From NCBI GenBank assembly GCA_902790495.1, contig CADASK010000017.1, positions 1 to 32,882 of the forward strand: a stretch of 32,882 bases of DNA, written 5' to 3'. Positions 1,501-32,882 of this stretch are shown here, in pieces. The DNA is from an uncultured Eubacteriales bacterium. Lineage in GTDB: Bacteria > Bacillota > Clostridia > Christensenellales > Aristaeellaceae. The notes below the pieces were generated by a model. That model worked only from the letters and a program-made list of their open reading frames with translations. It searched no databases and was not told the DNA's origin. The translations under genes were made by a program, and so were the position numbers. Position 1 is the stretch's first letter, and each line of letters begins with the position of its first letter.

Positions 1501-1558
1501 CGAAGGGTTGCAAGGGGCGATCGCAAAGCCCCTTGCCCGCGCCCGCAGGCGCGGAACC
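1501..1558 (+). repeat. Dispersed two-hairpin repeat, copy R1 (class A)
   Basis: First of ten copies of a family I define here. It begins CGAAGGGTT. Hairpin 1 has arms GCAAGGGG and CCCCTTGC around the loop CGATCGCAAAG. Hairpin 2 has arms CCGCGCC and GGCGCGG around CGCA, followed by AACC. It lies between tctC and tctB, antisense to their transcription. There is no U-tract in either direction, so it is not a standard terminator, but it could alter mRNA stability between the two genes. Confidence 0.85.
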
Positions 1559-1666
1559 CCGCAGCCGGATTGCATCGCAGTGTGGCAAACCCATCTGCCA
1601 AGAATCGCTGAAGCCGGAGAGGAGTCACCTCCTCCCCGGCCGAAAAGGTGTTCCGAAGGAATCAGA

Positions 1667-2659
1667 TTACTTCAGATCGTCGTAGTCCTTTTCCAGGGTC
1701 TCCTGCTCGAACATGTAGTCGCGCAGATCCTTGTATTCCGCGTTGGCGAACGCGACGGTGTCGGCGCCGGGGGCGGGCACTTCGCGCTGGTCATAGGCGG
1801 CGTTCTTCAGGAATTCCTGCCAGGTCGGATCCTGACGGCACTCCTCGATGGCGGCGACCAGGGTGTCGATAGCGCCCTGGGGGGTGCCGACCTTGGTGAA
1901 GATGGCGCGCCAGGGACCGGCGTAGCTGTCGATGCCCAGCTCAGCGGTGCACTCGCAGTCGGGCATGATGTCGATGCGATGCTCGCAGAACACCAGCAGC
2001 GGGATGATGTCGCCAGACTCGATCAGGCCGCTCATGTCGTCGTAGCCGCCGACGGAGAGGTCCACGTGGCCGCCGGCCATGTCGCTGTTGGCAGCGGAGC
2101 CGGAGTCATAGGTCACGGGGTTCAGGGCCAGGCCCTCGGTGGCGATCTCGAAGCACATGCCGTCAACGCCGGTGGCGGTCAGCATGGCCACGGACACCTC
2201 ATAGGGATGCTCGGCGGCATAGGCCTTCAGATCGGAGAAGTTCTTGATGCCGTACTTCTCCATGGAGATCTTGGAGCCGGCCAGCATGTTGATGGAGTGG
2301 ACCAGGATGTCCTGCGGCACGAACTCGTTCTTGAAATCGAAGTCCATGTTGCCCATCATGTCCTGGATGAACAGGGACTGGGTGCCCAGCAGGAAGGTGT
2401 AGCCGTCAGCGGGCTCCTTGTAGGCGAAGGTCGCGCCGGTCACGCCGGAGCCGCCGGTCTCGTTGCGGACGTCCACCGGAATGCCCAGCTTGTTCTGCAG
2501 CAGGGTGGCCATGGGACGGATGGTGCTGTCAGCGCCGCCGCCCAGACCCCAGGGGCAGACGATGGTGATGCCGCGCTCGAACTTCCAGTCCTCGGCGGAA
2601 GCCGCGCACAGGCCCAGGATCATGGTGAGAGCCAGAGCCAGAGCAAGGATTTTCTTCAT
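1667..2659 (-). CDS. tctC: Tripartite tricarboxylate transporter substrate-binding protein TctC
   Basis: Extracytoplasmic binding protein of the TctC/Bug family, 330 residues, the usual length. It delivers an organic acid to TctAB. A signal peptide ends at about residue 22 (ASA|ED). The mature protein starts with the family pattern ITIVCPWGLGGGADSTIRP, then RNETGGSGVTG near residue 65 and the ADGYTFLLG motif near residue 83, which build the ligand pocket. The start ATG follows AGGAGGAGAAACCC. It is the first gene of the operon and has its own promoter about 150 bases upstream. The gap to tctB holds repeat R1, so expression of the binding protein may differ from that of the membrane subunits. 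Confidence 0.93.
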   Translation of the reverse strand: MKKILALALALTMILGLCAASAEDWKFERGITIVCPWGLGGGADSTIRPMATLLQNKLGIPVDVRNETGGSGVTGATFAYKEPADGYTFLLGTQSLFIQDMMGNMDFDFKNEFVPQDILVHSINMLAGSKISMEKYGIKNFSDLKAYAAEHPYEVSVAMLTATGVDGMCFEIATEGLALNPVTYDSGSAANSDMAGGHVDLSVGGYDDMSGLIESGDIIPLLVFCEHRIDIMPDCECTAELGIDSYAGPWRAIFTKVGTPQGAIDTLVAAIEECRQDPTWQEFLKNAAYDQREVPAPGADTVAFANAEYKDLRDYMFEQETLEKDYDDLK

Positions 2660-2805
2660 GGGTTTCTCCTCCTGAATAGTGTATTTTCTTTAAGCGGAAG
2701 AGGCCCGGCGTCATCGAAGCACTGCATCCGCCCAAGGAACGGGTTTGACGGGGACCGCGCTGATGTCCATTCTGGCCCCAGCACAGCCACTTTGTCCGTG
2801 CCCTC

Positions 2806-2834
2806 ATTGTAAACGATTCTATGCAAAAGCGCAA
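2806..2834 (-). promoter_or_regulatory. Promoter of the tct operon
   Basis: On the minus strand TTGCGC (2829-2834) and TACAAT (2806-2811) are separated by exactly 17 bases. The resulting 5' leader is about 140 bases, long for a simple transporter operon. I see only weak pairing in it and no known riboswitch. Confidence 0.7.
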
Positions 2835-2910
2835 ATACATGTCTTGTTATGATGGGGATAACTTCTTTCTTATATTAGTTATGGCTGGGGGTTAACGAAC
2901 GCTTCTCTGG

Positions 2911-2950
2911 ACGCAAAGAAGGCACCCTCCTGCGAAGACGAGGAAGGTGC
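2911..2950 (-). terminator. Intrinsic terminator after the esterase pair
   Basis: Arms GCACCTTCCT and AGGAGGGTGC (one G-U pair) enclose a 9-base loop and are followed on the minus strand by CTTCTTTG. It starts about 15 bases after the stop codon of the esterase ending at 2965. The rest of the interval 2660-2964 holds only this terminator, the tct promoter and the leader. Confidence 0.75.
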
Positions 2951-2964
2951 ACAGGTTAACCGAA

Positions 2965-4242
2965 TCACTTTACGTTGGCGAAGAATTCAAAGGTTTCATC
3001 CATGACCTGCATCCAACCCATATTATGTGCGCCGCCGCACACACCGCGGAAGGTGATGTTCAGGCCCTTTTCCTTCCATTCCTTAAAGTTGGCGATCGCC
3101 TTATCATAACCATTGTTTTCGGTCGCGGCGACCACGCGGACCGGTGTATCGCCCAGCACAGACAGATCTCTGCCGTGGGGGTCAAAACCGGGGCTGGAAG
3201 AAATCGCAGCGAACATTCCGGGATAGTCGCAGGAAATCTGAATCGTGCCACGGCCACCCATGGAATTGCCCATCAGGAAAATGCGGCTTTCATCAATGTT
3301 GTATTTCGCTTTCACCTGCTCAATGGCAGCCAGCACTTCCATCTCACTGAGCACAGAAGCGCGGGCGACAGCAGGATCTTTGTCATTGGCTTTGTAACCG
3401 TAGTCAGCCTGGGCATATCCATTGGGGCACAGGCCAATGAAACCAAAGCGATCCAGAAGCATATCCCAGTCAGCGCCGGCTTCACCGCTGTAGTGTTTCG
3501 TGCGCTCCACGTCACGGTTATCGTTGCCGGTACCGCCGTGCAGGTACACCACCAGAGGCGTGGGAACCTCAGGATCATAGGAGGTGGGAATCGTCAGACG
3601 ATAGGGCATCAGCATCTGGGCTTCTTCAAACCAGTATACAGGCTGAATGACGCCATAGGTCTTGCCCGGAAGGGTAATCTGCTTGACGATACCGCTCGGT
3701 CCTGTGGATCCTTCGGGCAGAGCGGTTTCCTGATAAGACAGGTAGGTATAGCCTTCGCTTTCGCCAGTGACCAAAGCGAGCACCTTGGTGCCTACGCTGA
3801 CAGCGGGAACGCACAGCACGCCATCGACCTCGGCGGGAGCGGCTCCCAGCGTATCGGCCGCGCCGTCGATGGTCACGTCCTTGCTGCCGACGGTCATGTC
3901 AGCCTTGACATACTCGTCTTCCATATGGATCGCGCCGGTGGCGGCGTCATAGGTGTAAGAAAACTGAAACACCTTGCTCAGAGAATCCAGCGGGATCAGG
4001 AAGTCGTCGTCCACCTTGGCGATGGAGACGGGCTGGTCATAGCGCTTATAGTATTCGTTGTCGCGCTGTTCAAGCAGAAGCAGATCTGTATCAGCCTTGA
4101 AGAATGCGGCCTTGATGACGAAGTAGACGTTGGGGCCGCCTTCGATCTGGCCCGCGGGCACCTTTTCCCGGCCTTCGGCCAGACCAGCGCCGAGACTGAA
4201 CACAAACATGAGAGCAAGGACAAGAGCTAGAATCTTTTTCAT
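2965..4242 (-). CDS. Secreted alpha/beta-hydrolase esterase with N-terminal stalk-like domain (copy 2)
   Basis: 425 residues. A signal peptide ends at about residue 22 (GLAEG). Residues about 35-175 resemble the copper amine oxidase N-terminal-like domain used as a surface stalk (GQIEGG..VYFVIKAAFFKADTD; DFLIPLDSLSKVFQFSYTYD). Residues about 195-425 are an esterase of the PHB-depolymerase/feruloyl-esterase type: oxyanion loop HGG at 235-237, nucleophile Ser327 in GNSMGG, catalytic His406 in GGAHN. The acid residue is uncertain; Glu375 is the best candidate. The product probably removes acyl groups from dietary polysaccharide or other esters outside the cell. It lies 46 bases after its paralogue and is probably co-transcribed with it. 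Codon use is more AT-rich than in neighbouring genes. Confidence 0.85.
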   Translation of the reverse strand: MKKILALVLALMFVFSLGAGLAEGREKVPAGQIEGGPNVYFVIKAAFFKADTDLLLLEQRDNEYYKRYDQPVSIAKVDDDFLIPLDSLSKVFQFSYTYDAATGAIHMEDEYVKADMTVGSKDVTIDGAADTLGAAPAEVDGVLCVPAVSVGTKVLALVTGESEGYTYLSYQETALPEGSTGPSGIVKQITLPGKTYGVIQPVYWFEEAQMLMPYRLTIPTSYDPEVPTPLVVYLHGGTGNDNRDVERTKHYSGEAGADWDMLLDRFGFIGLCPNGYAQADYGYKANDKDPAVARASVLSEMEVLAAIEQVKAKYNIDESRIFLMGNSMGGRGTIQISCDYPGMFAAISSSPGFDPHGRDLSVLGDTPVRVVAATENNGYDKAIANFKEWKEKGLNITFRGVCGGAHNMGWMQVMDETFEFFANVK

Positions 4243-4288
4243 CGGTTTACGCCTCCTGCTTATTGATGATGATCAGACAGCTTATCGT

Positions 4289-5566
4289 TTACTTTGCGTC
4301 AGCGAAGAACTGGAAGGTTTCGGTCAAAACGTCACCCTGAGACCAAGCGGTGTTATGATAACCGCCGCCAACGCCGCGGAAGGTGATATTGACACCCTCT
4401 TCTTTGTAGGTTTTCACGACTTCAATGGCTTCATTATAGCCTTTGTCCTCGGTACCCATGACAACGCGGACCGGTTTGTCGCCAATGCCAGTCAGGTCAA
4501 ATTCATGATGGATTGCGCCAGACGGACTGAAAGCAGCGAACAGCTCAGGATAATTATGCGCCAAACTCAGGGTGCCGCCGCCGCCCATGGAATTGCCCAT
4601 CAGGTAAATACGGCTGCTATCAATATTGTACTTTGCTTTCACCTGGTCGATGGCAGCCAGTACTTCCTGTTCGCTCAGCTTGGAAATACGAACCTCAATG
4701 GGATCGTCAGACTCCGCGCCGCCGTAACGGCCATGGCCGTATCCATTGACCGAAAGACCAATGTATCCAAACCGATCCAATTCGTTATCCCACCATGTTC
4801 CGGTTTGCCCGTTGTAATTCAAGGTGCGTTCCACGTCGCGGTTGTCATTGCCGCTGCCGCCATGCAGGAACACAACCATAGCATTGGGAACTTCAGGATC
4901 GTAACTCGTAGGCACAAACAGGCGATAGGGCATCAGCATCTGCGCTTCTTCAAACCAATACACAGGCTGATGAATGCCATAGATTTTACCAGGGATGGTC
5001 AGGCAGCCAACCGAACCGCTAATGCCAGTAGAGCCCTTCGGCAGGCTGGTTTCTTCATAGGCCAGATAGGTGTATCCCAAGCTTTCGCCGGTCACCAGCG
5101 CAAACACCTTGGTGCCTACGCTGACAGCGGGAACGCACAGCACGCCGTCGATCTCGGCGGGAGCGGCGCCCAGCGTATCGGCCGCGCCGTCGATGGTCAC
5201 GTCCTTGCTGCCTACGGTCAGGTCGGCCTTCACGTATTCATCTTCCAGATGGATCGCGCCGGTGGCGGCGTCATACGTGTAGCTGAACTGAAAGATCTTG
5301 CTCAGGGAGTCCAGCGGGAGCAGGAAGTCGTCATCCACTTTGGTGATGGTGACAGGCTGATCATAGCGCTTGTAGTAATCGTTTCCTTTCTGTCCGATTA
5401 CGATCACATCGGTGTCAGCCATGAAAAACGCGGCGTTGATGACAAAGTAGACATCAGAGCCGCCTTCGATCTGGCCGGCGGGCGTCTTAGTGCGGCCTTC
5501 AGCGAGGGCGGATCCCAGACTCAAGACCATGATGATTGCGAGGATGAATGAGAAGTATTTCTTCAT
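4289..5566 (-). CDS. Secreted alpha/beta-hydrolase esterase with N-terminal stalk-like domain (copy 1)
   Basis: 425 residues from ATG 5566, preceded by AAGGAGCCATCAAC; the frame is open further upstream, but the signal peptide MKKYFSFILAIIMVLSLGSA fixes this start. Layout matches the neighbouring copy: stalk-like domain at about 35-175, oxyanion HGG at 235-237, nucleophile Ser326 in GNSMGG, His404 in GGYHN, and a TED motif at 372-374 as a possible source of the acid. The two proteins have the same length and align without large gaps, so this is a tandem duplication. Identity is very high in the stalk domain and lower around the active site, which suggests divergence in substrate. It is the first gene of the pair, downstream of a promoter and a set of palindromes. 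Confidence 0.87.
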   Translation of the reverse strand: MKKYFSFILAIIMVLSLGSALAEGRTKTPAGQIEGGSDVYFVINAAFFMADTDVIVIGQKGNDYYKRYDQPVTITKVDDDFLLPLDSLSKIFQFSYTYDAATGAIHLEDEYVKADLTVGSKDVTIDGAADTLGAAPAEIDGVLCVPAVSVGTKVFALVTGESLGYTYLAYEETSLPKGSTGISGSVGCLTIPGKIYGIHQPVYWFEEAQMLMPYRLFVPTSYDPEVPNAMVVFLHGGSGNDNRDVERTLNYNGQTGTWWDNELDRFGYIGLSVNGYGHGRYGGAESDDPIEVRISKLSEQEVLAAIDQVKAKYNIDSSRIYLMGNSMGGGGTLSLAHNYPELFAAFSPSGAIHHEFDLTGIGDKPVRVVMGTEDKGYNEAIEVVKTYKEEGVNITFRGVGGGYHNTAWSQGDVLTETFQFFADAK

Positions 5567-5642
5567 GTTGATGGCTCCTTCTCTGATTCGGTTGTGGGCT
5601 GGGCTGCGGCGCGCTTCCGGATCACGCGCCGCTATGCGGGTC

Positions 5643-5665
5643 TGTGAATTCACATCCAATGTGAT
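5643..5665 (-). promoter_or_regulatory. Overlapping palindromes downstream of the esterase promoter, candidate operator
   Basis: On the + strand TGTGAATTCACA (5643-5654) is a perfect 12-bp palindrome. It overlaps TCACAT-CCA-ATGTGA (5650-5664), a perfect 6+6 inverted repeat. The half-site TGTGA/TCACA therefore occurs three times in 23 bases. The array lies at about +6 to +27 relative to the predicted start of the esterase operon, a position that fits a repressor. The binding protein is not identified. Confidence 0.5.
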
Positions 5666-5676
5666 TTGGCAAATAA

Positions 5677-5705
5677 ACCATAACATTTGGACAAGGAAAA
5701 AGCAA
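5677..5705 (-). promoter_or_regulatory. Promoter of the esterase operon
   Basis: TTGCTT (5700-5705) and TATGGT (5677-5682) with 17-base spacing on the minus strand, about 110 bases upstream of ATG 5566. The -35 box overlaps one arm of the 5702-5740 hairpin. Confidence 0.55.
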
Positions 5706-5740
5706 ATACTTCTTTCCTAATCGGAATCATAAGTATTTGC
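5702..5740 (-). terminator. AT-rich hairpin, probable terminator of the glutamine amidotransferase gene
   Basis: A perfect 10-bp inverted repeat (GCAAATACTT / AAGTATTTGC) with a 19-base interior that holds a nested TTCC/GGAA pair. On the minus strand it is followed by TTTTTCC, as expected of a terminator for the gene ending at 5828. One arm overlaps the -35 box of the next promoter, so it could also act as an operator. Confidence 0.6.
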
Positions 5741-5827
5741 TTACGGTATTGACTTGATGAATAATTTTCATGTGATGGCGCTTTCGATGATTCTGGGCGG
5801 CAAGGAAGGCCAATCAGGCCATCCGCC

Positions 5828-6532
5828 TCAGGCTTTGCACGCCTCCACAAACGCCCGGAAAATCCCCATGGCCGAACTGTCCTTCGGCCAGAGGTACTCG
5901 GGGTGCCACTGCACGCCCCACATATATCGGTAGGAAGGCACCCAAATGGCCTCGATCAGCCCGTCCGGGGCGACGCCCATCACCTCGACGCCCTCGCCGG
6001 GGCGGTCCACCGCCTGGTGGTGCAGGGTGTTGACGCGCAGGGGCTGGCCGCCGCTGAGCTCCCACAGGGGCGTGGAGGGCAGCGGGCGCACCTCGTGGGT
6101 CGGCACGTCGTGGTCCTCCAGCTGCCGGTGGGCGATATTCGACGGGTGCTGGGCCGGGATGTCCTGATAGAGGGTGCCGCCGCGCATCACGTTGATCAGC
6201 TGCACGCCGCGGCAGATGCCGAGGATCGGCTTGCCCGCCGCCTCGAACAGGCGGAAGGCCGCGCACTCCATGGCGTCCCGCTCGGGGGAGATGCCCACGC
6301 CCACCGGCAGGATCTCCTGGCCGTAGCGCGCGGGGTCGACGTCGGGGCCGCCCGTGAGCAGCAGGCCGTCGCACCGGGCCGCCGCCTCCGCCAGCTCGCC
6401 CTCGTCCGCCGTCAGCGGGAGCATCACCGGCAGGCCGCCGGCCGCGGAGACGCCCTCCATATAGCCCGGGCGCATCCAGTGCTTCATCCGCACGTCCTCC
6501 ACCAGCGGGGTCAGTCCGATCAATGGCCGCAT
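5828..6532 (-). CDS. Gamma-glutamyl-gamma-aminobutyrate hydrolase-like class I glutamine amidotransferase (PuuD family)
   Basis: 234 residues from ATG 6532, which follows AAGGAGGACATCGCG; the open frame extends upstream, but MRPLIGLTP is the typical family start. Visible motifs are GLLLTGGPDVDPARYG (57-71), the nucleophile elbow ILGICRG with Cys107, and the catalytic His210 and Glu212 in VQWHPEY. The family hydrolyses gamma-glutamyl amides such as gamma-glutamyl-GABA in putrescine breakdown. No other putrescine genes are nearby, so the true substrate is open. It is a single-gene unit with a near-consensus promoter and its own terminator. Confidence 0.9.
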   Translation of the reverse strand: MRPLIGLTPLVEDVRMKHWMRPGYMEGVSAAGGLPVMLPLTADEGELAEAAARCDGLLLTGGPDVDPARYGQEILPVGVGISPERDAMECAAFRLFEAAGKPILGICRGVQLINVMRGGTLYQDIPAQHPSNIAHRQLEDHDVPTHEVRPLPSTPLWELSGGQPLRVNTLHHQAVDRPGEGVEVMGVAPDGLIEAIWVPSYRYMWGVQWHPEYLWPKDSSAMGIFRAFVEACKA

Positions 6533-6567
6533 CGCGATGTCCTCCTTGTGATCCGTGTCGGGTGACA

Positions 6568-6596
6568 GTATAGAACGCAGACAGGCTCCTGTCAAT
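6568..6596 (-). promoter_or_regulatory. Near-consensus promoter of the glutamine amidotransferase gene
   Basis: TTGACA (6591-6596) and TATACT (6568-6573) with 17-base spacing on the minus strand. The dyad GACAGG-CT-CCTGTC (6581-6594) overlaps the -35 box and might be an operator. Confidence 0.85.
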
Positions 6597-6721
6597 GGGA
6601 AAACACGGCTTTTTGCAGTTTTTCATCTCGAAACTTTCATTTGCTTCGGCAAGAACGGCCAAAATACAGAGAGAAAACAGAATAATTTGCATGAAATGAG
6701 GACAATACGTGCAATTTGTGC

Positions 6722-6750
6722 TTGACAGCGGGCGGATAGACCCTTATAAT
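6722..6750 (+). promoter_or_regulatory. Consensus promoter of the amino-acid ABC transporter operon
   Basis: TTGACA (6722-6727) and TATAAT (6745-6750), both perfect, with 17-base spacing. The leader before ATG 6816 is about 58 bases and contains GCCGGCAG..CTGCCGCCGGC (around 6763-6790), which can pair into a hairpin. Confidence 0.92.
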
Positions 6751-6815
6751 ACAAGTCACAGCCGGCAGATGAATGTCCCTGCCGCCGGCTCCCACGACGC
6801 AAGGAGGTTATTAAA

Positions 6816-7559: not shown

Positions 7560-7592
7560 GCGAGCCGCTCCGCAGCGCATGAACCTGATTGG

Positions 7593-7624
7593 AAGGACGT
7601 TTCCAGCCGGAAGCGTCCTTCTTT
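7593..7624 (+). terminator. Hairpin between binding-protein and permease genes (attenuator or mRNA-stabilising)
   Basis: A 12-bp stem (AAGGACGTTTCC / GGAAGCGTCCTT, one G-U pair) with loop AGCC, followed by only CTTTCC. The short U-tract suggests partial termination or 3'-end protection. Either would give more binding protein than membrane components. Confidence 0.7.
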
Positions 7625-7692
7625 CCAGCGCAGGGAGATGCAGATATCCTATAGCTCTTTTATGATTTTTCAACAAGGGATGTGAAGCCGTC

Positions 7693-13420: not shown

Positions 13421-13520
13421 AAGGCCGGGTCCCGTGCGATTTTCCGTCGTGAACCCTGTCAGGGCCGGAAGGCAGCAGCAGTAAGCGTCAGGTTGATGTG
13501 CTGCGGGGCTGCCCGGTCGG
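13421..13520 (+). ncRNA. ffs: Small signal recognition particle RNA (4.5S type)
   Basis: Bacterial SRP RNA, the scaffold that binds Ffh and FtsY and directs membrane proteins to the translocon. The conserved domain IV is clear: GTCAGGGCCGGAAGGCAGCA, with the GGAA tetraloop at about 13467-13470 and the AGCAGCAG internal loop. The ends pair (CCGGGTCCCG near 13426 with CGGGGCTGCCCGG near 13504), giving the short rod form without an Alu domain. The exact ends are uncertain by about 10-15 bases. A short T-rich stretch (GGTTTTCTTT) follows. Repeat R2 and glyA lie downstream. Confidence 0.92.
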
Positions 13521-13565
13521 AGCAGGCGCGGTTTTCTTTATAGCTTATAAAACTAAGCGAGGTTG

Positions 13566-13622
13566 CGAAGGTTTCCAAAGGGCGATCGCAAAGCCCTTTG
13601 GTCGCCGCCGGCAGGCGGCGAA
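13566..13622 (+). repeat. Dispersed two-hairpin repeat, copy R2 (class B)
   Basis: Begins CGAAGGTTT. Hairpin 1 arms CCAAAGGG / CCCTTTGG, loop CGATCGCAAAG. Hairpin 2 arms TCGCCGCC / GGCGGCGA, loop GGCA. It lies between the SRP RNA and glyA, in the 5' region of glyA and sense to it. Confidence 0.85.
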
Positions 13623-14898: not shown

Positions 14899-14940
14899 TC
14901 CCAATTGTCAGCCAATCCTGCGAGCTCACGAGAGGGCGAG

Positions 14941-15060
14941 CGAAGGGTTGTCAGGGGCGCCGGACGCCCGGAAAACTCCACAGCGTGGAGTTTTCAGTGA
15001 GGCGAAAGCGGCAGCGACATGATCGCAAAGCCCCTGACCCGCGCCCGCAGGCGCGGAACC
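14941..15060 (+). repeat. Dispersed repeat, copy R3, long form with internal third hairpin (class A)
   Basis: Outer arms GTCAGGGGC (14950-14958) and GCCCCTGAC (15030-15038) match the family, as do the loop remnant GATCGCAAAG (15021-15030) and hairpin 2 (CCGCGCC/GGCGCGG). Between the first arm and the loop lies about 60 extra bases. They contain a perfect 11-bp hairpin, GAAAACTCCAC / GTGGAGTTTTC (14971-14995). Copy R7 has a related extension at the same point. It lies just downstream of glyA. Confidence 0.85.
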
Positions 15061-15135: not shown

Positions 15136-15190
15136 TTCGCGCCTGCAGGCGCGACCCGGGGGCTTTGCGATCGCCCCCGGGACCCCTTCG
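15136..15190 (-). repeat. Dispersed two-hairpin repeat, copy R4 (class B)
   Basis: On the minus strand: CGAAGGGGT, then arms CCCGGGGGC / GCCCCCGGG around the conserved loop, then TCGCGCC / GGCGCGA around TGCA. Opposite in orientation to R3, with the glyA terminator between them. The interval 14899-15235 is therefore fully occupied by R3, terminator, R4 and the ribosome site of the next gene. Confidence 0.85.
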
Positions 15191-15235
15191 CAGCCCGCGC
15201 TGTAGCTTTGACAGTCTGCTTTGCAGGAGGCACCC

Positions 15236-17410: not shown

Positions 17411-17464
17411 TTCGCCGCCTGCGGGCGGCGACCAGAGGCTTTCCGATCGCCTCTGGACTCTTCG
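17411..17464 (-). repeat. Dispersed two-hairpin repeat, copy R5 (class B)
   Basis: On the minus strand: CGAAGAGT, arms CCAGAGGC / GCCTCTGG around CGATCGGAAAG-type loop, then TCGCCGCC / GGCGGCGA around CGCA. This copy has the most divergent arms, and both sides have changed together. Located just after the glycosyltransferase stop. Confidence 0.83.
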
Positions 17465-17520
17465 GGCCGCATCTGTTTAGGCAAACTATATGATTACAAA
17501 AGCTGCATAAAGGCGGCGGG

Positions 17521-17578
17521 CGAAGGTTTGCAAAGGGCGATCGCAAAGCCCTTTGCCCGCGCCCGCAGGCGCGGAACC
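17521..17578 (+). repeat. Dispersed two-hairpin repeat, copy R6 (class A)
   Basis: CGAAGGTTT, arms GCAAAGGG / CCCTTTGC around CGATCGCAAAG, then CCGCGCC / GGCGCGG and AACC. It is opposite in orientation to R5, 56 bases away, and 44 bases before msrA. The AT-rich spacer between R5 and R6 may hold the msrA promoter, but I see no convincing boxes. Confidence 0.87.
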
Positions 17579-18333: not shown

Positions 18334-18456
18334 GGTTCCGCGCCTGCGGGCGCGGGCAGGGGGCTTTGCGATCGGTCCGGGGCTGCCGCCCGCTCTCCGC
18401 TGAAAACTCCATAATATGGAGTTTTCCGGGCGCTCCGAGCCCCCTGCACCCCTTCG
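18334..18456 (-). repeat. Dispersed repeat, copy R7, long form with internal third hairpin (class A)
   Basis: On the minus strand: CGAAGGGGT, first arm GCAGGGGG, then about 60 extra bases carrying the perfect hairpin GAAAACTCCATA / TATGGAGTTTTC (18401-18425). Next come loop GATCGCAAAG, second arm CCCCCTGC, and CCGCGCC / GGCGCGG. The extension resembles that of R3 (shared CGCCCGGAAAACTCCA, GGAGTTTTCAG and GCGGCAGC). The interval 18163-18496 is filled by the MITE, terminator and this repeat. Confidence 0.85.
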
Positions 18457-18496
18457 CCCGTCTTCTTGTTTGATAAGTGTGCTTTGAGATATAGTG

Positions 18497-21620: not shown

Positions 21621-21671
21621 GTTGGGTCGGACATTCCTCGGCAGGAATGCCAAACCTAATGAAAGGCGATG

Positions 21672-21727
21672 CGAAGGTTTGCAAAGGGCGACCGCAAAGC
21701 CCTTTGCCCGCGCCCGCAGGCGCGGAA
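21672..21727 (+). repeat. Dispersed two-hairpin repeat, copy R8 (class A)
   Basis: CGAAGGTTT, arms GCAAAGGG / CCCTTTGC around the loop variant CGACCGCAAAG, then CCGCGCC / GGCGCGG. It begins 5 bases after the protease stop codon (in the transcript sense) and lies antisense to it, so it forms the protease 3' leader. Confidence 0.86.
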
Positions 21728-26226: not shown

Positions 26227-26229
26227 CCG

Positions 26230-26302
26230 TGGAGCATAGCGGATTCGAACCGCTGACCCCCACACTGCCAGTGTGGTGCGCTACCAGCTGCGCTAATGCC
26301 CC
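26230..26302 (-). tRNA. tRNA-Ala, anticodon GGC
   Basis: 73 bases without an encoded CCA. On the minus strand: acceptor GGGGCAT / ATGCTCC with one G-U pair, D arm GCGC-AGCTGGTA-GCGC, anticodon arm CCACA-CTGGCAG-TGTGG giving anticodon GGC, T arm AGCGG-TTCGAAT-CCGCT, discriminator A. It reads alanine codons GCC and GCU. Own promoter and terminator on either side. Confidence 0.96.
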
Positions 26303-26343: not shown

Positions 26344-26387
26344 GGGGTCAGAGAAAATATTTTTTCGTACTTTTTCTGCGGATAGAA

Positions 26388-26921: not shown

Positions 26922-26968
26922 GGGAAATCTCCTTGCTTCAAGAACAAAGCTTCAAATGAAATTCATGA

Positions 26969-26997
26969 TTGAAGAAACCCGGTCCTCCCGGTATAAT
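26969..26997 (+). promoter_or_regulatory. Promoter of the sugar O-acetyltransferase gene
   Basis: TTGAAG (26969-26974) and TATAAT (26992-26997) with 17-base spacing, about 60 bases before ATG 27057. CCGG-TCCT-CCCGG lies in the spacer. Confidence 0.82.
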
Positions 26998-27056
26998 GGA
27001 ACGCGGAGGCCCAGGAGCGGGCTATCATCCTGAGGACCAGAGGAGGACACAGGCAA

Positions 27057-27698
27057 ATGACAGAGCAGGAGAGAATGAAGGCCGGCTATATGTGGCTGGA
27101 CGACGCGGAGAACATGGCGATGCAGGCCCGGGCGCGGGAGGTGCTGGCGCGGTTCAACGCCCTTCCGGCGGAGGCCAACCGCGAGCGCATGGAGATGAAC
27201 CCCGAGATGTTCGGGGCCTGCGGCAAGAACGTGTGGATCGTTCCGCCGCTGAAGTTCACCATCGGCAAGCATATCTCCATCGGCGAGGGCTGCTATTTCA
27301 ACCAGGGCGCGACCTTCATCGACGACTGGAAGATCGAGATCGGCGACCACTGCCTCTTCGGGCCGAACGTCACCCTGTGCACCACCGGCCATCCGATCTC
27401 CCCGAAGCACCGCGGCGACGGCATGTATTCCTTCCCGATCCGCCTGGGCAGCAACGTGTGGCTCGGCGCGAACGTGGTGATCCTGCCCGGCGTGACCATC
27501 GGCGACAACAGCGTGATCGGCGCGGGCAGCATCGTGACAAAGGATATCCCCGCCAACGTGGTGGCCTTCGGTGCGCCCTGCCATGTGTACCGCGAGATCA
27601 CCGAGCGGGACGACGAGTATTATTTCCGCGATTACCGCTTCGACGCCCAGCCCGAGCGCACAGGCGACGGCCCGGTGTTGGACTTTATGGATGAATAA
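27057..27698 (+). CDS. Sugar O-acetyltransferase, maltose acetyltransferase/NodL type
   Basis: 213 residues of the left-handed beta-helix acetyltransferase family (Maa/NodL/LacA), which acetylates the 6-hydroxyl of sugars using acetyl-CoA. The N-terminal Mac domain (about 1-55) is followed by hexapeptide repeats. Visible motifs are FNQGATFIDDWKIEIGDHCLFGP and the catalytic-site His in TTGHPI (near 119), then GSNVWLGANVVILPGVTIGD and NSVIGAGSIVTKDIPANVVA, ending AFGAPCHVYREI. A good ribosome site (GAGGAGG) precedes the start. It converges on the DAHP synthase gene with no gap. Confidence 0.94.
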   Translation: MTEQERMKAGYMWLDDAENMAMQARAREVLARFNALPAEANRERMEMNPEMFGACGKNVWIVPPLKFTIGKHISIGEGCYFNQGATFIDDWKIEIGDHCLFGPNVTLCTTGHPISPKHRGDGMYSFPIRLGSNVWLGANVVILPGVTIGDNSVIGAGSIVTKDIPANVVAFGAPCHVYREITERDDEYYFRDYRFDAQPERTGDGPVLDFMDE

Positions 27699-28715
27699 TT
27701 ACACACTTCTCCCGATGACGCCCGCGATGGCGCGCAGATCCTTCATCACCTCGGAGAAAACCTCTGGCTTGATGGACTGCTGGCCGTCGCACAGGGCGTG
27801 GGCGGGATCGTTGTGTACCTCCACCATGATGCCGTCCGCGCCGATGGCGATGGCCGCCCGGGCCATGGGCTCCACCATCCACGCCTTGCCGGTGCCGTGG
27901 CTTGGGTCCACCAGCACGGGCAGGTGGCTCAGCCGCTTCACCGCGGGGATGGCCCCCAGATCCACCGTGTTGCGCGTGTAGGTCTCGAAGGTGCGGATGC
28001 CCCGCTCGCAGAGGATCACGTTGGGGTTGCCCTCCGAGAGGATGTACTCGGCGCTCATCAGCCACTCCTCGATGGTGGCGGAGAGGCCGCGCTTGAGCAG
28101 GATGGGCTTGTCGATGCGGCCCAGCTGGCGCAGCAGGTCGAAGTTCTGCATGTTGCGCGCGCCGACCTGGATCACGTCCACCTTGTCCATGAACACGTCG
28201 ATGTCCATGGGGCTCATCAGCTCGCTGACCACCGGCAGCCCGGTCTCCCGGCGCGCGGCCTGCAGCAGCTCCAGGCCCTCGTACTTGAGACCCTGGAAGG
28301 AGTAGGGCGAGGTGCGGGGCTTGAACGCGCCGCCGCGCAGCAGGGTCGCGCCGGCCGCCTTGACCGCCTTGGCGATGCCCACGATCTGCTCCTCGCTCTC
28401 CACGGAGCAGGGGCCGGCGATGACGGTCAGGGCCTCGCCGCCGATGACGCTGCCGCCCACGCGGACGGTGGTGTTGACCGGGTGGAACATGCGGTTGGCT
28501 TTCTTGAAGGGCTCGGCCACGTGCATGATGCGCTCCACGCAGTGCTGGCTCTCGATCTGGTTTTCATCCACGCGGGTGGTGTCGCCCACCAGGCCCAGGA
28601 TGGTCAGGTCGGTGCCGATGATGGGCGTCACGGTGATGTCGCCCATGGCGGTGATCCGCGCGGTCAGGCTGTCGATCTCGCGCTGGGCGGTGCCCTGCTT
28701 CAATACGATAATCAT
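27699..28715 (-). CDS. aroF: 3-deoxy-7-phosphoheptulonate (DAHP) synthase, AroF/KDO8P-synthase-like type
   Basis: 338 residues. Condenses phosphoenolpyruvate and erythrose-4-phosphate, the first step of aromatic amino-acid synthesis. This is the type I-beta enzyme with an N-terminal ferredoxin-like regulatory domain (about 1-70, MIIVLKQGTAQREIDSL) and a catalytic barrel. Barrel motifs seen: VIAGPCSVESEEQ, LLRGGAFKPRTSPYSFQG, VIQVGARNMQNFDLL, PILLKRG, LCERGIRTFE, LPVLVDPSHGTG and GADGIMVEVHNDP. GGAGGGATGCACTT precedes ATG 28715. No T-box or other leader switch is visible. Its stop codon is adjacent to that of the convergent acetyltransferase gene. Confidence 0.96.
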   Translation of the reverse strand: MIIVLKQGTAQREIDSLTARITAMGDITVTPIIGTDLTILGLVGDTTRVDENQIESQHCVERIMHVAEPFKKANRMFHPVNTTVRVGGSVIGGEALTVIAGPCSVESEEQIVGIAKAVKAAGATLLRGGAFKPRTSPYSFQGLKYEGLELLQAARRETGLPVVSELMSPMDIDVFMDKVDVIQVGARNMQNFDLLRQLGRIDKPILLKRGLSATIEEWLMSAEYILSEGNPNVILCERGIRTFETYTRNTVDLGAIPAVKRLSHLPVLVDPSHGTGKAWMVEPMARAAIAIGADGIMVEVHNDPAHALCDGQQSIKPEVFSEVMKDLRAIAGVIGRSV

Positions 28716-28737
28716 AAGTGCATCCCTCCGAGGAAAA

Positions 28738-28767
28738 TAGATACCTTCTGAGGGGGAGACCTGTCAA
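28738..28767 (-). promoter_or_regulatory. Probable promoter of the DAHP synthase gene
   Basis: TTGACA (28762-28767) with TATCTA (28738-28743) at 18-base spacing on the minus strand, only about 20 bases before the start codon. The -35 is perfect, the -10 is weak. Confidence 0.6.
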
Positions 28768-28811
28768 GAGGAGAACACAGAAAGAACAAACCCTGTCAGG
28801 GGTGGCAAAAA

Positions 28812-28853
28812 ATGAGAAAGCCCGCGGGAGACGCTGATGGTCTCCTGCGGGCT
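28812..28853 (-). terminator. Intrinsic terminator of the secreted-protein operon
   Basis: AGCCCGCAGGAGAC pairs with GTCTCCCGCGGGCT around a 7-base loop; the minus-strand tail is TTCTCATTTTTTG. Starts about 20 bases after the stop at 28873. Confidence 0.87.
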
Positions 28854-28872
28854 GCTTTGTACTGATATGAGA

Positions 28873-29451
28873 TTACATCTTGTTGAAATCCATCTCGCTG
28901 AAGAAGTCCAGCATCATGGCGACCTGCTCCTCGGACAGGGTGGTCACCTCGGAGTCGGGCTCGAAGGTCACGACGCAGTCGATCTCATAGGACTCGTAGA
29001 TGCTGTAGAAGTCCACCACGCTCACGTCGTTGATCTTGCCGCGCACGATCATCAGCTTGGTGCCGTAGGCGGACTCGGTGTACTCGAAGGTGACGTCGTC
29101 CATCTGATCCATGAAGGTGGCCTGGATCTCGGCGAGCTCCTCCTCGGTCAGGTCGTTCATCTTCAGGGCCTTGCCGTCCACGGTGTACATGTCGCTGAAG
29201 GCGACGTTGGTGATGATGGTGGGCTTGTTCTTGTCCTGGGAGGACACGACGGCGGTGATCATCGTGTTGGTGGAGTCGATGATGTTCACAGTGTAGCCCT
29301 CGGGGATCTTGCACTTGATCTCAAAGGCGCCGTTGACATTCAGGGTGCCCAGGTATTCCTTCTGCGCCGCGGCGGGCTCAGCGGTCTCGGCGAAGGCGGT
29401 GCCGCACAGCAGCAGGGCGGCGCACAGCATCAGAGCAAAAAGCTTTTTCAT
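28873..29451 (-). CDS. Secreted protein of unknown function
   Basis: 192 residues. A signal peptide ends at about residue 21 (TAFAET). The mature protein is acidic and mixed alpha/beta: strands such as FEIKCKIPEGYTVNII, then an acidic helix (LTEEELAEIQATFMDQMDD). It has two cysteines (near residues 47 and 160). No known catalytic motif. Third gene of a three-gene unit with the SH3-domain protein; 41 bases separate the two. Strong ribosome site AAGGAGG. Confidence 0.8.
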   Translation of the reverse strand: MKKLFALMLCAALLLCGTAFAETAEPAAAQKEYLGTLNVNGAFEIKCKIPEGYTVNIIDSTNTMITAVVSSQDKNKPTIITNVAFSDMYTVDGKALKMNDLTEEELAEIQATFMDQMDDVTFEYTESAYGTKLMIVRGKINDVSVVDFYSIYESYEIDCVVTFEPDSEVTTLSEEQVAMMLDFFSEMDFNKM

Positions 29452-29492
29452 TGGATTCTTTCCTCCTTATGTCTGCGGGTATCGGGCGTCCC

Positions 29493-30089
29493 TTACTTCA
29501 CCACGTACGAGGAGCTGACATAGCCCACGTAGCCGGTGTTGGGATCCTGCACCTGATACCAGCCCTTCAGCTCGGCGATCACGTTCAGCTCGTCGTTGGC
29601 CTTCAGGGTCGCCATCACGCCGGTGGACTTGCTGGGGCCGAAGCGCAGGTTGACCCAGCCGCTGGCGCGGGTCGGGCGCACCATGATGCGGTAGGGGGCC
29701 ACGACCTTCAGGGTCTTCCAGAGGCGGTTCATCTCGTCGAGGGTGTCGGCGTAGCCGGTGCTCTTGGTGTTGGTGTCGGTGTAGTTGGCGGGACGGGCGG
29801 TGGGCTTCTCGTTCACCAGGAAGCGGGTCTGCACATACACGTGCTCATAGGCGCCCGCGCCCATCAGGGCGGTCCAGCCGTTGCCCAGGTGGTAGTCGAC
29901 GGCCACCTCCGTGCCGAAGTCCAGCTGGCCGATGACGTTATTGCCCGTAGCCGGCTCGGTGCGGACATTCAGGGTCTTGCCGTTGGTCGTGTAGACATAC
30001 ATGGTGAACACGGCCTTGGCGGAGAGGGGAGCAGCCAGCCCGACCATCAGCATGGCGGCCAGCGCGAGGGCAAGGATTCTCTTGGACAT
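29493..30089 (-). CDS. Secreted protein with two SH3-like domains
   Basis: 198 residues. A signal peptide ends at about residue 25. Two bacterial SH3-like domains bind or recognise cell-wall peptidoglycan in this family: domain 1 at about 28-95 (TTNGKTLNVRTEPATGNNVIG), domain 2 at about 130-198 (ASGWVNLRFGPSKSTGVMATL; DELNVIAELKGWYQV). There is no catalytic domain, so it is more likely an anchor or sensor than a hydrolase. Strong ribosome site AAGGAGG. Middle gene of the secreted operon. Confidence 0.9.
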   Translation of the reverse strand: MSKRILALALAAMLMVGLAAPLSAKAVFTMYVYTTNGKTLNVRTEPATGNNVIGQLDFGTEVAVDYHLGNGWTALMGAGAYEHVYVQTRFLVNEKPTARPANYTDTNTKSTGYADTLDEMNRLWKTLKVVAPYRIMVRPTRASGWVNLRFGPSKSTGVMATLKANDELNVIAELKGWYQVQDPNTGYVGYVSSSYVVK

Positions 30090-30141
30090 GGTTCGTTCTT
30101 CCTCCTTATCTTATGGTCACAGCGGGGTTCCGGCAGCGGTG

Positions 30142-30738
30142 TCAGTCGGTGATGCTGACCGGATCCCAGCCGTAGTCCTGGAAGGCCTCGATATCCAGCT
30201 CGTTTGCCTGCGCGTAGGCGAGGACGAAGGCGCGGCGGTACTGGGGCAGGTAGCCCTCGGTGGCGTCGCTGGAGACGGCGTACTCTTTTTCCAGCGCCTC
30301 ATCGCCGCCGGCGAGCTTCTTGATGCTGGCCTCGAAGGCCTCGCCCTCCTCCGCAACCTCCAGGGAGGTCACGGCCCAGGCGCCGTCCTTCTTCTCCAGC
30401 TGCATGACGCCGGGGCATTCGCCGCCCGCGGTGCACATCAGGATCTTGCCCTCGAGCTTGTAGGCGAAGAGCCAGAAGTTGCCGTAGACCTTGGCCTGCG
30501 TCTCGTCCTCGTTCACGTCCATCTTCAGCACGATGGGCGCGGGGATCAGCACGCCGCCCTCCTCGGGGGTGTAGCCGAACTCCTCCGCGGTCACCATGTA
30601 GTTGGCGACGGCGGCGAGGATGGGTTCCTCATCGGCGAAGGGATAGCTGTAGGGCGGCAGACCCGAGGCTTCTGCCATGGCGCCGCACACTCCCAGCGCC
30701 AGCGCGAGGGCCAGCATAAGGGTAAGCAGTCTTTTCAT
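30142..30738 (-). CDS. Secreted protein of unknown function
   Basis: 198 residues from ATG 30738 (AGGAAAGGAG upstream; the open frame begins earlier but the signal peptide MKRLLTLMLALALALGVCGA fixes the start). The signal is cut near AMA|EA. The mature part contains PPYSYPFADEEPILAAVANY and an acidic C-terminal half; strand pattern TQAKVYGNFWLFAYKLEGK resembles small secreted beta-rich proteins. Two nearby cysteines (CTAGGEC) could pair. First gene of the secreted operon; unknown function. Confidence 0.8.
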   Translation of the reverse strand: MKRLLTLMLALALALGVCGAMAEASGLPPYSYPFADEEPILAAVANYMVTAEEFGYTPEEGGVLIPAPIVLKMDVNEDETQAKVYGNFWLFAYKLEGKILMCTAGGECPGVMQLEKKDGAWAVTSLEVAEEGEAFEASIKKLAGGDEALEKEYAVSSDATEGYLPQYRRAFVLAYAQANELDIEAFQDYGWDPVSITD

Positions 30739-30790
30739 GTGCTTGTCTCTCCTTTCCTGTTCCAGGATGGCCATTGGCCTATTCGTAAAC

Positions 30791-30819
30791 ATTGTAACGT
30801 GCGGACATCACTTTGTCAA
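30791..30819 (-). promoter_or_regulatory. Promoter of the secreted-protein operon
   Basis: TTGACA (30814-30819) and TACAAT (30791-30796) with 17-base spacing on the minus strand, about 55 bases upstream of ATG 30738. Confidence 0.87.
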
Positions 30820-30920
30820 GTATTCTGTAAGATTTTTGTAACAATATCTAAATCATTCCATTTCCTTTTTGACATCTTTCCGCGCGCCGGGCCGATGGGC
30901 CCCAAGGGGCGGCGCGGCGC

Positions 30921-30949
30921 TTGACACTCCCGCCCCATGCCGCTATACT
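30921..30949 (+). promoter_or_regulatory. Promoter of the metNI operon
   Basis: TTGACA (30921-30926) and TATACT (30944-30949) with 17-base spacing. The leader is only about 33 bases, too short for a SAM or other riboswitch. Confidence 0.88.
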
Positions 30950-30956
30950 TGCATCG

Positions 30957-30974
30957 GGCGGCCGCTGCGCCGCC
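30957..30974 (+). promoter_or_regulatory. Hairpin directly before the metN ribosome site
   Basis: GGCGGC / GCCGCC (6 bp, 6-base loop) ends one base before ATGGAGG. It would form in the short metN leader and could hinder or time ribosome binding. Confidence 0.5.
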
Positions 30975-30987
30975 ATGGAGGCTTTCT

Positions 30988-32025
30988 ATGATTGAACTGA
31001 GAAACCTGTCCAAGAGCTTTGTGACGGCGGACGGGCCGGTGGACGCGCTCAAGCACGTCAACCTGACCATCCGCGATGGGGATATCTACGGCATCATCGG
31101 CATGAGCGGCGCGGGCAAATCCACGCTGGTGCGGTGCATCAACATGCTGGAGCGGCCCTCCGAGGGCGCGGTGCTGCTGGACGGCACCGACCTGAGCTCG
31201 CTGGATAAAAAGCAGCTGCGGGAGATGCGCCACCGGGTGACGATGATCTTCCAGTCCTTCAACCTGCTGATGCAGCGCACCTGCCTGCACAACGTGATGC
31301 TGCCCCTGCGCCTGGCCCATATGCCGAAGCAGGAGGCCGAGGCCCGCGCCCGGGCGCTGCTGGAGACGGTGGGTCTGCCGGACAAGGCCAACGCCTACCC
31401 GGCCCAGCTCTCCGGCGGCCAGCAGCAGCGTGTCGCCATCGCCCGCGCCCTGGCGACCAACCCCTCGGTGCTGCTGTGCGACGAGGCCACCAGCGCCCTG
31501 GACCCGAAGACGACCCACGCCATCCTCGAACTGATCCGCGAGATCAACCGCAAGATGGGCATCACGGTCATCGTCATCACCCACCAGATGAGCGTGGTGC
31601 AGGAGATCTGCAACCGCGTCGCCATCCTGGAGAACGGCACGGTGGTGGAGGAGGGCGACGTGAGCGCGGTGTTCTCCAACCCGCGGGCGAAGGCGACCCG
31701 CAGCCTGGTCTACCCGGAGATGGCGGACATGGACGCCGTGACCCGGGTGCGCGGCCAGGCCGTGCGCATCACCTTCCACGGGGCCGCCGCCGCGGACAAG
31801 CCCCTCATTGCCTCCATGGCCATGGAGCGCAGCATCGCGGCCAGCATCCTCAACGCCTCCACGCGCACCGTGGGGGACAAGGTCTACGGCTACATGCTGC
31901 TGGACATCCCCGGCGGGCCGGACGTGCTGGCGGAGGCCGTGAAGTACCTCAGCGCCGAGCCGGACGTCTCCGTGCAGGTGGAGGCCAACTACGGCGTGAA
32001 CAGCGGTGAGGAGGTGAGCGAATGA
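30988..32025 (+). CDS. metN: Methionine-type ABC transporter ATP-binding protein MetN with NIL domain
   Basis: 345 residues. Powers import of methionine or its derivatives. Walker A GMSGAGKST (38-46), the signature [16 protein letters not shown], Walker B LLCDEATSALDPKT with the diagnostic Ala of MetN proteins, and VITHQMSVVQEICNRVAIL. Residues about 255-335 form a NIL domain, which senses methionine and inhibits transport. ATG 30988 follows GGAGG and matches the MetN beginning MIELRNLSKSF; the open frame continues upstream. Its stop overlaps the metI start by 4 bases (ATGA). Confidence 0.94.
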   Translation: MIELRNLSKSFVTADGPVDALKHVNLTIRDGDIYGIIGMSGAGKSTLVRCINMLERPSEGAVLLDGTDLSSLDKKQLREMRHRVTMIFQSFNLLMQRTCLHNVMLPLRLAHMPKQEAEARARALLETVGLPDKANAYPAQLSGGQQQRVAIARALATNPSVLLCDEATSALDPKTTHAILELIREINRKMGITVIVITHQMSVVQEICNRVAILENGTVVEEGDVSAVFSNPRAKATRSLVYPEMADMDAVTRVRGQAVRITFHGAAAADKPLIASMAMERSIAASILNASTRTVGDKVYGYMLLDIPGGPDVLAEAVKYLSAEPDVSVQVEANYGVNSGEEVSE

Positions 32026-32732
32026 ACCAGTTTGAGCGCGCCTTTACCCCCGAGGCCATGGCGGAGGCCTGGGAGATCTTTCAGCGCGACTTTCCCCAGG
32101 GCCTGTGGGACACGGTGTACGTCACTTTCGTGGCGACCTTCTTCGCCATCGTGATCGGCCTGCCGCTGGGCATGCTGATCGTCGCGGGCGACGAGAAGGG
32201 CATCCGGCCGCTGCCGGCCCCGCTCATGAAGGCCCTCAACGTCATCATCAACCTGCTGCGCTCGGTGCCCTTCCTGATCCTCATCGTGATGGTGATCCCC
32301 CTGACCCGCGTCATCGTGGGCACCTCGGTGGGCACCACGGCGTCCATCGTGCCGCTGGTTATCGCGGCCTTCCCCTTTGTGGCGCGGCTGGTGGAGTCCA
32401 GCCTGCGGGAGGTCAGCCCGAACATCATCGAGATGGCCCAGTCCATGGGCGCGACGCCGATGCAGATTCTGCTGCGGGTGATGCTGCCCGAGGCGGTGCC
32501 GTCGCTGATCACGAACTTCACCCTGGCGATCACCACGATTCTGGGCTACACGGCCATGAGCGGCGCCATCGGCGGCGGCGGTCTGGGCAAGATCGCCATC
32601 ATGGTGGGCTACAACCGCTACAAGTACGCGGTGCTGTACCTCGCGGTGATTGTGCTGGTGATCCTGGTGCAGGTGATGCAGTCCTTTGGCACATGGCTTG
32701 CGCGGAAGTGCGATAAGAGGCTGAAGCACTAA
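32022..32732 (+). CDS. metI: Methionine-type ABC transporter permease MetI
   Basis: 236 residues, five to six hydrophobic helices, of the MetI family. Visible motifs are GLWDTVYVTFVATFFAIVIGLP near the N-terminus, NLLRSVPFLILIVMVIPLT, the EAA loop IIEMAQSMGATPMQIL near residue 140, and YTAMSGAIGGGGLGKIAI near 185. It forms the channel for MetN; translation is coupled to metN. No binding protein (MetQ) lies between metI and the window end; it may lie downstream or elsewhere. No terminator follows; two dispersed repeats do. Confidence 0.94.
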   Translation: MNQFERAFTPEAMAEAWEIFQRDFPQGLWDTVYVTFVATFFAIVIGLPLGMLIVAGDEKGIRPLPAPLMKALNVIINLLRSVPFLILIVMVIPLTRVIVGTSVGTTASIVPLVIAAFPFVARLVESSLREVSPNIIEMAQSMGATPMQILLRVMLPEAVPSLITNFTLAITTILGYTAMSGAIGGGGLGKIAIMVGYNRYKYAVLYLAVIVLVILVQVMQSFGTWLARKCDKRLKH

Positions 32733-32784
32733 AGCTAAGTATTATCTATCAGCCATGGAATTCAGTTTGCGTTAAGAGACGATG

Positions 32785-32841
32785 CGAAGGGGTGCAGGGG
32801 GCGACCGCAAAGCCCCCTGCCCGCGCCCGCAGGCGCGGAAC
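32785..32841 (+). repeat. Dispersed two-hairpin repeat, copy R9 (class A)
   Basis: CGAAGGGGT, arms GCAGGGGG / CCCCCTGC around CGACCGCAAAG, then CCGCGCC / GGCGCGG. Head-to-tail with R10, four bases apart, just after metI. Confidence 0.85.
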
Positions 32842-32844
32842 CCG

Positions 32845-32882
32845 CGAAGGTTTCCAAAGGGCGATCGCAAAGCCCTTTGGTC
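32845..32882 (+). repeat. Dispersed two-hairpin repeat, copy R10 (class B, cut by window edge)
   Basis: CGAAGGTTT, arms CCAAAGGG / CCCTTTGG around CGATCGCAAAG. The last visible bases GGTC match the class B junction into hairpin 2, which lies outside the window. Confidence 0.8.

Follow-up and report, generated by a model that had tools for sequence, protein, structure and literature searches.

The 32,882-nucleotide stretch of DNA analysed here as a whole, which we call the window, spans positions 1–32,882 of contig C17 in a 2.47 Mb draft genome from an uncultured, probably gut-type member of the Clostridia (G000; 94.5% complete, 78 contigs), and it contains ten copies, R1 to R10, of a short structured repeat. 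The question raised by this locus is why the stems of the repeat change from copy to copy in a compensatory way while the loop that they enclose is nearly constant. A first-pass annotation of the window had described the copies as two-hairpin units and proposed selection on, or copying of, a folded structure with a sequence-specific loop, and we find all ten copies in place, with arms that pair as it described. In our reading, to which we give a probability of roughly 0.6, the unit is best interpreted as a putative class I intrastrand-triplex hairpin with a pseudoknot, accompanied by a second hairpin. From its 5′ end it consists of a tag, a spacer (the predicted third strand), hairpin 1 (arm, loop and arm′) and hairpin 2. 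The copies are given below, where "code" is the number of spacer positions, from the second base, that follow the triplet rule described under the spacer.

R1, short form, 1500–1554, plus strand: tag 1500–1503, predicted third strand 1504–1509, arm 1510–1518, loop 1519–1527, arm′ 1528–1536, hairpin 2 1537–1554; arm 9/9 bp, tag-loop pair GC, code 5/5
R2, short form, 13565–13621, plus strand: predicted third strand 13569–13574, arms 13575–13583 and 13593–13601, hairpin 2 13602–13621; code 5/5
R3, long form, 14940–15056, plus strand: predicted third strand 14944–14949, arm 14950–14958, insert 14959–15020 (62 nt), loop 15021–15029, arm′ 15030–15038, hairpin 2 15039–15056; code 4/5
R4, short form, CCCGGGGGC arm type, 15137–15191, minus strand; code 4/5
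R5, short form, switched predicted pseudoknot pair (CCGA with TCGG), 17412–17465, minus strand: 8-bp stem, 5-nt predicted third strand; code 4/4
R6, short form, 17520–17574, plus strand; code 5/5
R7, long form, 18338–18457, minus strand: 65-nt insert 18374–18438; code 5/5
R8, short form, GACCGC loop (A·C at the fourth tag-loop position), 21671–21725, plus strand; code 5/5
R9, short form, GACCGC loop, 32784–32838, plus strand; code 5/5
R10, 32844–32882, plus strand: begins 5 nt past hairpin 2 of R9 and is cut by the window end after hairpin 1; code 5/5

Pairing of the Arms Is Retained across Sequence Changes

The arms of hairpin 1 differ between copies, yet they pair in all ten, over 9/9 bp in nine of them and 8/8 bp in R5, and hairpin 2, present in nine copies, likewise retains 7–8 bp. 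Alignment of 28 copies, with the pseudoknot included, gave 97% of cells paired as against 86% in shuffles and 67 cells with double changes as against 20.6, so that the covariation suspected from the window is significant; further pair types numbered 13, with no excess over shuffles (13.1). The arm changes form a limited set of types and the independent events are therefore fewer than the copies, and chimeric copies with mismatched arms also occur (L132:12857–12954 and L121:13833). Constraint on a folded structure, in line with the first-pass annotation, is strongly supported. An outer stem, GCGAAGG/CCTTTGC, is seen in some copies; it was rejected as a universal feature, and inverted flank repeats are not enriched overall in G000.

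The Loop Pairs with a 5′ Tag

The tag at the foot of hairpin 1, xCGA, is complementary to TCGx′ in the loop, and the change of the loop C to G in R5 and its kin is accompanied by a change of the tag G to C. Among 294 distinct copies (deduplicated cores with a full arm and the CGAAG tag) this pair is G-C in 168 and C-G in 122, with four exceptions (290/294 concordant), and in a low-redundancy set it is concordant in 101/102, the best of 10,000 shuffles reaching 73. Another tag-loop count left out 15/135 copies that lacked the 5′ motif. Both states of the pair are found on the identical arm types CCAAAGGGC, GCAAAGGGC and CCAGGGGGC, so the switch is not simply one old split. At the fourth position the loop has T in 89/102 and C in 13/102, and we thus regard three tag-loop pairs as sure and the fourth as optional. 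The loop had been taken as merely sequence-specific; the G-C to C-G switches show instead that its conservation reflects pairing with the 5′ tag.

The Spacer Follows a Triplex Code

The spacer that separates the tag from hairpin 1 is 4–7 nt long. Read in the direction away from the tag, and set against the stem from below the closing pair down to the base, the spacer has G where the stem has G-C and T (sometimes A) where it has A-T, such that the arms CCAAAGGGC, GCAAGGGGC, GCAGGGGGC, CCAGAGGC and CCAGGGC are partnered by the spacers AGGTTT, AGGGTT, AGGGGT, AGAGT and AGGT, respectively. Counted from the second spacer base, 47/49 positions in the window obey this code, and 0 of 5000 re-pairings were as good. 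Over 50 spacer/arm types, counted from the third base, 162/191 positions obey, where 20,000 re-pairings averaged 0.56 and peaked at 0.682 (none as good) and other registers gave at most 0.65; a count over 40 types, also from the third base, gave 138/161, with shuffles reaching 0.683 at most. One of 51 types was dropped for the 50-type count and 11/51 for the 40-type count. The length of the spacer equals that of the stem minus 3 in 34/50 types. The alternative that the spacer forms Watson-Crick pairs with the 3′ arm was considered and rejected, as only the G-runs fit and A-T would need A, yet the base opposite A-T over the 50 types is T in 47 cases and A in 6 (C and G in one each).

As far as the letters go, the spacer pattern is the antiparallel purine-motif triplex code, with the triplets G·GC, T·AT and A·AT and a predicted third strand antiparallel to the purine strand; the pseudoknot would impose this polarity too, since with the tag held at the loop the spacer has to descend the stem toward its base. 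The order of a class I intrastrand triplex (third strand, purine strand, pyrimidine strand, with the G·GC, A·AT, T·AT code) is found in the unit. The arm pairing, the tag-loop covariation, the code with its register and the tendency of the spacer toward stem minus 3 are all read directly from the copies, and from them we infer that the unit may form a triplex.

A covariance model built from the short form R1 and run across the class (391 genomes) gave weaker matches in seven other genomes, belonging to families f77, f79 and f82 (8/391 genomes including G000). The elements parsed from these families have 3–6-nt loops and no GATCGC, and over 22 types they obey the code at 89/113 positions by automatic parse, which 5000 shuffles (maximum 0.772) never matched; GGGAAAT with CCAAAAGGGC and GGATT with CCAAAGGC are examples. 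The margin is small, owing to a rough parse in which several stem ends are misplaced and 20/48 parses were dropped to leave the 22 types, and the spacer columns of R1 bias the model slightly toward code-fitting matches.

The pairing of the arms might be kept without any selection if template switching copied one arm to the other (quasipalindrome correction) and the resulting types were spread by copying, and both the limited set of arm types and the chimeric copies are what such a process would leave behind. Template switching cannot, however, write the spacer, which is in mirror order and has T where the purine strand of the stem has A, and so is no copy of it, whether inverted or direct; nor does template switching readily yield a tag-loop switch on several arm types. 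We consider this explanation improbable.

Abundance and Placement of the Repeat

In the window, the loop 10-mer with at most one mismatch has 11 matches (shuffle mean 2.7, maximum 6), ten of which are the repeat copies; the eleventh (29317) lies within open reading frames (ORFs) and is without hairpin arms. The expectation of further copies was borne out, as the 15-mer GCGATCGCAAAGCCC occurs 226 times genome-wide (its reversed pattern, 0 times) and 88 cores in 431 kb scale to an estimated 414–504 per genome, the 431 kb being the window plus 20 stretches, several of them picked for holding copies. An autonomous copy or distant half-elements were sought in the same 431 kb, which yielded only truncations, chimeras and many chance matches to the short 5′ pattern. 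Predicted genes are avoided by 70/81 copies (simple ORF caller; three of the 70 lie at stretch edges), and among neighbouring pairs no more than 300 bp apart 12/14 are inverted, head-to-head or tail-to-tail. A GC-skew test indicated a weak strand bias (56/88, p 0.014), to which we give no weight, since neighbouring copies are non-independent.

Within the genus, model matches number at least 150 each in G000, G010 and G002, 97 in G005, 71 in G001, 32 in G006 and 0–7 in the other six genomes. The records with the repeat, among the matches listed, are Clostridia metagenome-assembled genomes, several of them from rumen, omasum or faeces; the non-Clostridia matches among those listed were without the hairpin and were dropped as chance, and a scan of IMG/VR gave one match, also without the hairpin. 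The family, which the first-pass annotation did not recognise, is equally unfamiliar to the collections that we searched: Rfam has no match near the gathering score to the repeats or the longer inserts, and the core 10-mer and arm sequences, searched as text in open-licence literature, led to no matching named repeat family. Hammerhead and hepatitis delta virus-like ribozymes were set aside on grounds of topology, with no match in Rfam.

GC-rich hairpins between genes could be plain intrinsic terminators, a view that the first-pass annotation had already argued against. One of the nine copies R2–R10, in the 20 kb scanned, was flagged as terminator-like (hairpin 2 of R8), and the inserts, the pseudoknot and the spacer code are not terminator features, so that this explanation is hardly credible. 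The likeness that had been drawn to repetitive extragenic palindromic (REP) elements and bacterial interspersed mosaic elements (BIMEs) stands for the habit of the repeats, as short palindromes outside genes in hundreds of copies and mostly inverted pairs, and falls for membership. The repeats carry no GTAG or CGTC tag, and Y1_Tnp is found in only three of the 12 genus genomes, G009, G006 and G007 (4, 32 and 0 model matches), none of them high-copy, so that the comparison fails on two defining features; the target duplications found in other genomes are of the type made by miniature inverted-repeat transposable elements (MITEs). We thus consider it very improbable that these are REP/BIME repeats mobilised by a Y1 (RAYT) transposase.

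A more serious alternative is that the same H-type pseudoknot acts in RNA, where the transcribed repeat would protect, pause or regulate mRNA and the spacer would lie in the deep groove through RNA base triples. RNA predicts the pseudoknot topology, an A-rich loop 3 and the covariation equally well, and the position of most copies outside predicted ORFs is consistent with it. The orientation of the copies to flanking genes is weakly biased at most (26 with, 16 against), and the polarity of the predicted third strand together with its G·GC/T·AT/A·AT code is that of the purine motif, which is stated by Holder et al. (2015, PMC4666352) not to form in RNA. We therefore regard an RNA element as unlikely and favour action as single-stranded DNA, on account of this polarity.

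Carriage by Two Different MITEs

In a survey of the family, 32/150 genomes gave a BLAST match to a query holding the unit plus a larger domain. In G172, 19/39 distinct cores lie between the inverted ends GGTTCTTCACGGAAA (up to four mismatches), and 9 of these 19 copies with terminal inverted repeats are flanked by an exact 8-bp duplication, shuffles giving a mean of 0.1 and a maximum of 2 in 2000; other duplication lengths occur in at most 1/19. In G002, 18/56 copies have different ends, TACCAATCTCA, with a TNA duplication in 13/18 (shuffle maximum 10 in 5000), a result that followed moving the end one base inward on viewing the flanks, the first end having shown 0 duplications of 2–11 bp in 17 copies. 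The first end type occurs in G010 in only 3/21 copies with both ends, with 0 duplications. At least two MITE backbones, differing in their ends, thus carry the unit within them in G172 and G002, and we infer that the unit spread as a passenger. MITE ends, that is terminal inverted repeats plus a duplication, are not recognisable in the window genome, and target duplications at the unit edges were also not found in G005, G001 and G010. The MITEs with 8-bp duplications are presumably ISL3-like and those with TNA duplications IS5/IS1031-like; the units of G172 and G002 lie between such ends, whereas the window copies are without them, and the unit is what the two backbones have in common.

Inserts and Variant Forms

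R3 and R7 are not plain hairpins: the structured inserts that they carry (62 and 65 nt) separate the 5′ arm from GATCGC and so fall precisely on the pseudoknot junction. The inner hairpin of the insert has 67 perfect copies in the genome, on several arm types. In JAUNQH and JAKSQH (G172 and G173) a larger, possibly homologous domain is found at the same junction in three loci, and genus g43 has a similar domain without the tag-loop frame, adjoining tRNA genes (ARAGORN) and then apparent T-arm copies. A domain of the form GAAA-stem-TTTCTCAAxCGAAAAGGAGC-hairpin-GCGACTATTGAGxTTGCGGA was seen in G116 (L186, ∼1320–1750, and L233) and G155 (L201/L214, ∼1430–1720), just downstream of tRNA-Ala and tRNA-Met genes and followed by apparent tRNA T-arm copies, in one case with an inverted T-arm-like copy on the other side; its stem CAAGC/GCTTG varies to CAACC/GGTTG, CGCCC/GGGCG and CAATC/GATTG.

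Units abut head to tail in G172 (L319, L322) and G173 (L327), some of them consisting of hairpin 1 only, and hairpin 2 therefore seems dispensable. Some copies in G002 (L349–L357, e.g. L352:5792–5869) have an extra short hairpin, GCCAGTCCGGCTGCGGA, inside the 3′ arm. Another genus of the family (G041, L244 and L245; G084, L246 and L247) has short arrays of the hairpin unit at ∼100-bp spacing with the loop GAGCGGAAA. In G000, L132:7823–7962 is another repeat-like stretch, GGCTCCCCTATGAGGGGAGCTG...GACTGAGGGGTTGG, which the aligned G005 site is without; similar letters occur in L056.

The window also holds a gene for the bacterial small signal recognition particle RNA immediately upstream of R2 (13423–13521; Rfam, 65.9 bits) and tRNA-Ala (GGC) at 26229–26302 on the minus strand. 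The stretches 3410–3990 and 4734–5314 are duplicated at ∼73–84% identity, 1324 bp apart, and are perhaps tandem paralogous genes.

A Proposed Mechanism and Its Difficulties

The strand bearing the unit would be exposed during lagging-strand synthesis, transposition or palindrome extrusion, upon which hairpin 1 would close by arm pairing and the tag xCG could pair with CGx′ of the loop, giving an H-type pseudoknot that locks the loop. The spacer would thereby be held in the major groove against the purine side of the stem, where it could form the reverse-Hoogsteen triplets G·GC, T·AT and A·AT. The resulting one-sided knot would make polymerases or nucleases stall at the palindrome apex, and in the spaces between genes it would be tolerated. 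In our view the most likely effect is that of a strand-specific knot, either stalling polymerases or shielding the extruded hairpin. Our broader proposal, for which we see even odds, is that the repeat is a natural DNA element whose intrastrand triple helix is kept by selection, in which stem, third strand and loop pseudoknot co-change over hundreds of copies in several genera, with a code fit in other families, and that the knot is an inner module of differing MITEs and itself receives modules at the pseudoknot junction.

Several results weigh against the triplex and its mobility. The first spacer base, A opposite G-C, falls outside the code, which is also violated at 29/191 positions (among the misfits are pyrimidine interruptions faced by T or C, G-C faced by A, and chimeric copies); the coded triplets number only 3–6 per copy; and the copies are related, so that shuffles overstate independence. 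In copies with the GACCGC loop the fourth tag-loop pair is missing. The filters excluded 86 of 374 deduplicated cores (78 without a full arm, 8 without the tag), and a tag-like motif lies upstream of 53 of these 78, the loop base agreeing in 39/53 with 14 discordant; this lower concordance is as expected if broken or chimeric copies lose the tag-loop rule, and it still counts against perfection. According to PMC4666352, a related triplex motif of E. coli gave no sign of a stable triplex when footprinted in vivo. As to mobility, no 8-mer duplication is enriched in the window genome at any offset from the unit edges (n = 74), although the wider flanks are slightly richer in direct repeats than controls (G000, 0.07 against 0.03; G005, 0.14 against 0.03; G010, 0.30 against 0.04). 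Comparison with G005 gave no clean empty sites, the intergenic DNA being too diverged. The Y1 transposase (TnpA-REP; Y1_Tnp, PF01797) that the REP likeness suggested is absent from the high-copy genomes G000, G005, G001 and G010 (92–94.5% complete) and G002 (66%), the ISL3 transposase is absent from 17/18 genomes tested, G172 included, and searches of the Y1 and ISL3 families revealed no transposase tied to the repeat unit.

Significance and Comparison with Known Systems

Bacterial intrastrand triplex repeats are already known as a kind; as far as the open-licence literature searched extends, the variant described here is new: its class I order comes with a pseudoknotted loop and a second hairpin, it has modular inserts and is carried by MITEs, and its covariation is three-way. 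No paper was found in that literature that joins an intrastrand triplex with covariation. The three-way covariation is another kind of evidence on whether triplexes act in cells, and one that allows the matter to be put to the test with defined variants; if our reading is true, the repeat would provide evidence from evolution that the folding of DNA into a triplex is of consequence in cells. Two MITE backbones with different ends also share one small module in this family.

The RNA of telomerase contains an H-type pseudoknot with a major-groove triplex, and the predicted fold resembles it in that loop 1 would run along the deep groove of stem 2. Unlike in telomerase RNA, the predicted third strand here is G-rich and antiparallel to the purine strand, with the geometry of the DNA purine motif.

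With the REP/BIME elements of the GTAG and CGTC superfamilies the repeats share a tagged hairpin, inverted dimers and hundreds of copies. The REP tag, GTAG or CGTC, is described as not base-paired in the passage of PMC3733652 cited here, whereas the tag of these repeats, [GC]CGAAG, is base-paired with the loop, and their high-copy genomes have no RAYT.

The closest likeness is to the intrastrand triplexes treated in the cited part of PMC4666352. There the BoxC/PIT and TM_ECO elements appear, like the repeats here, as short many-copy repeats of no known function, with a G·GC-based antiparallel intrastrand triplex such as we predict; PIT elements block DNA polymerase in vitro with no effect in vivo, and folding of the E. 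coli motif is seen in vitro, but the functional tests made earlier in vivo had found no effect. TM_ECO has the order C-G-G, whereas the repeats described here would be class I, with the third strand at the 5′ end. In the same source, class I comprises reverse-Hoogsteen, purine and pyrimidine domains in that order with the triplets AAT, GGC and TAT, and the repeats share both this domain order and these triplets with ITxF class I. The ITxF definition given there asks for at least six triplets and loops of 1–6 nt, whereas the window copies have 4–5 coded triplets and a 9-nt apical loop; lying below these published size limits, they are not filed as PIT or ITxF members, although their sequences look composed to act in a like manner. 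Unlike BoxC/PIT and TM_ECO, the repeats have fewer triplets and a 9-nt loop paired to a tag, carry a second hairpin and loop inserts, and belong to uncultured Clostridia.

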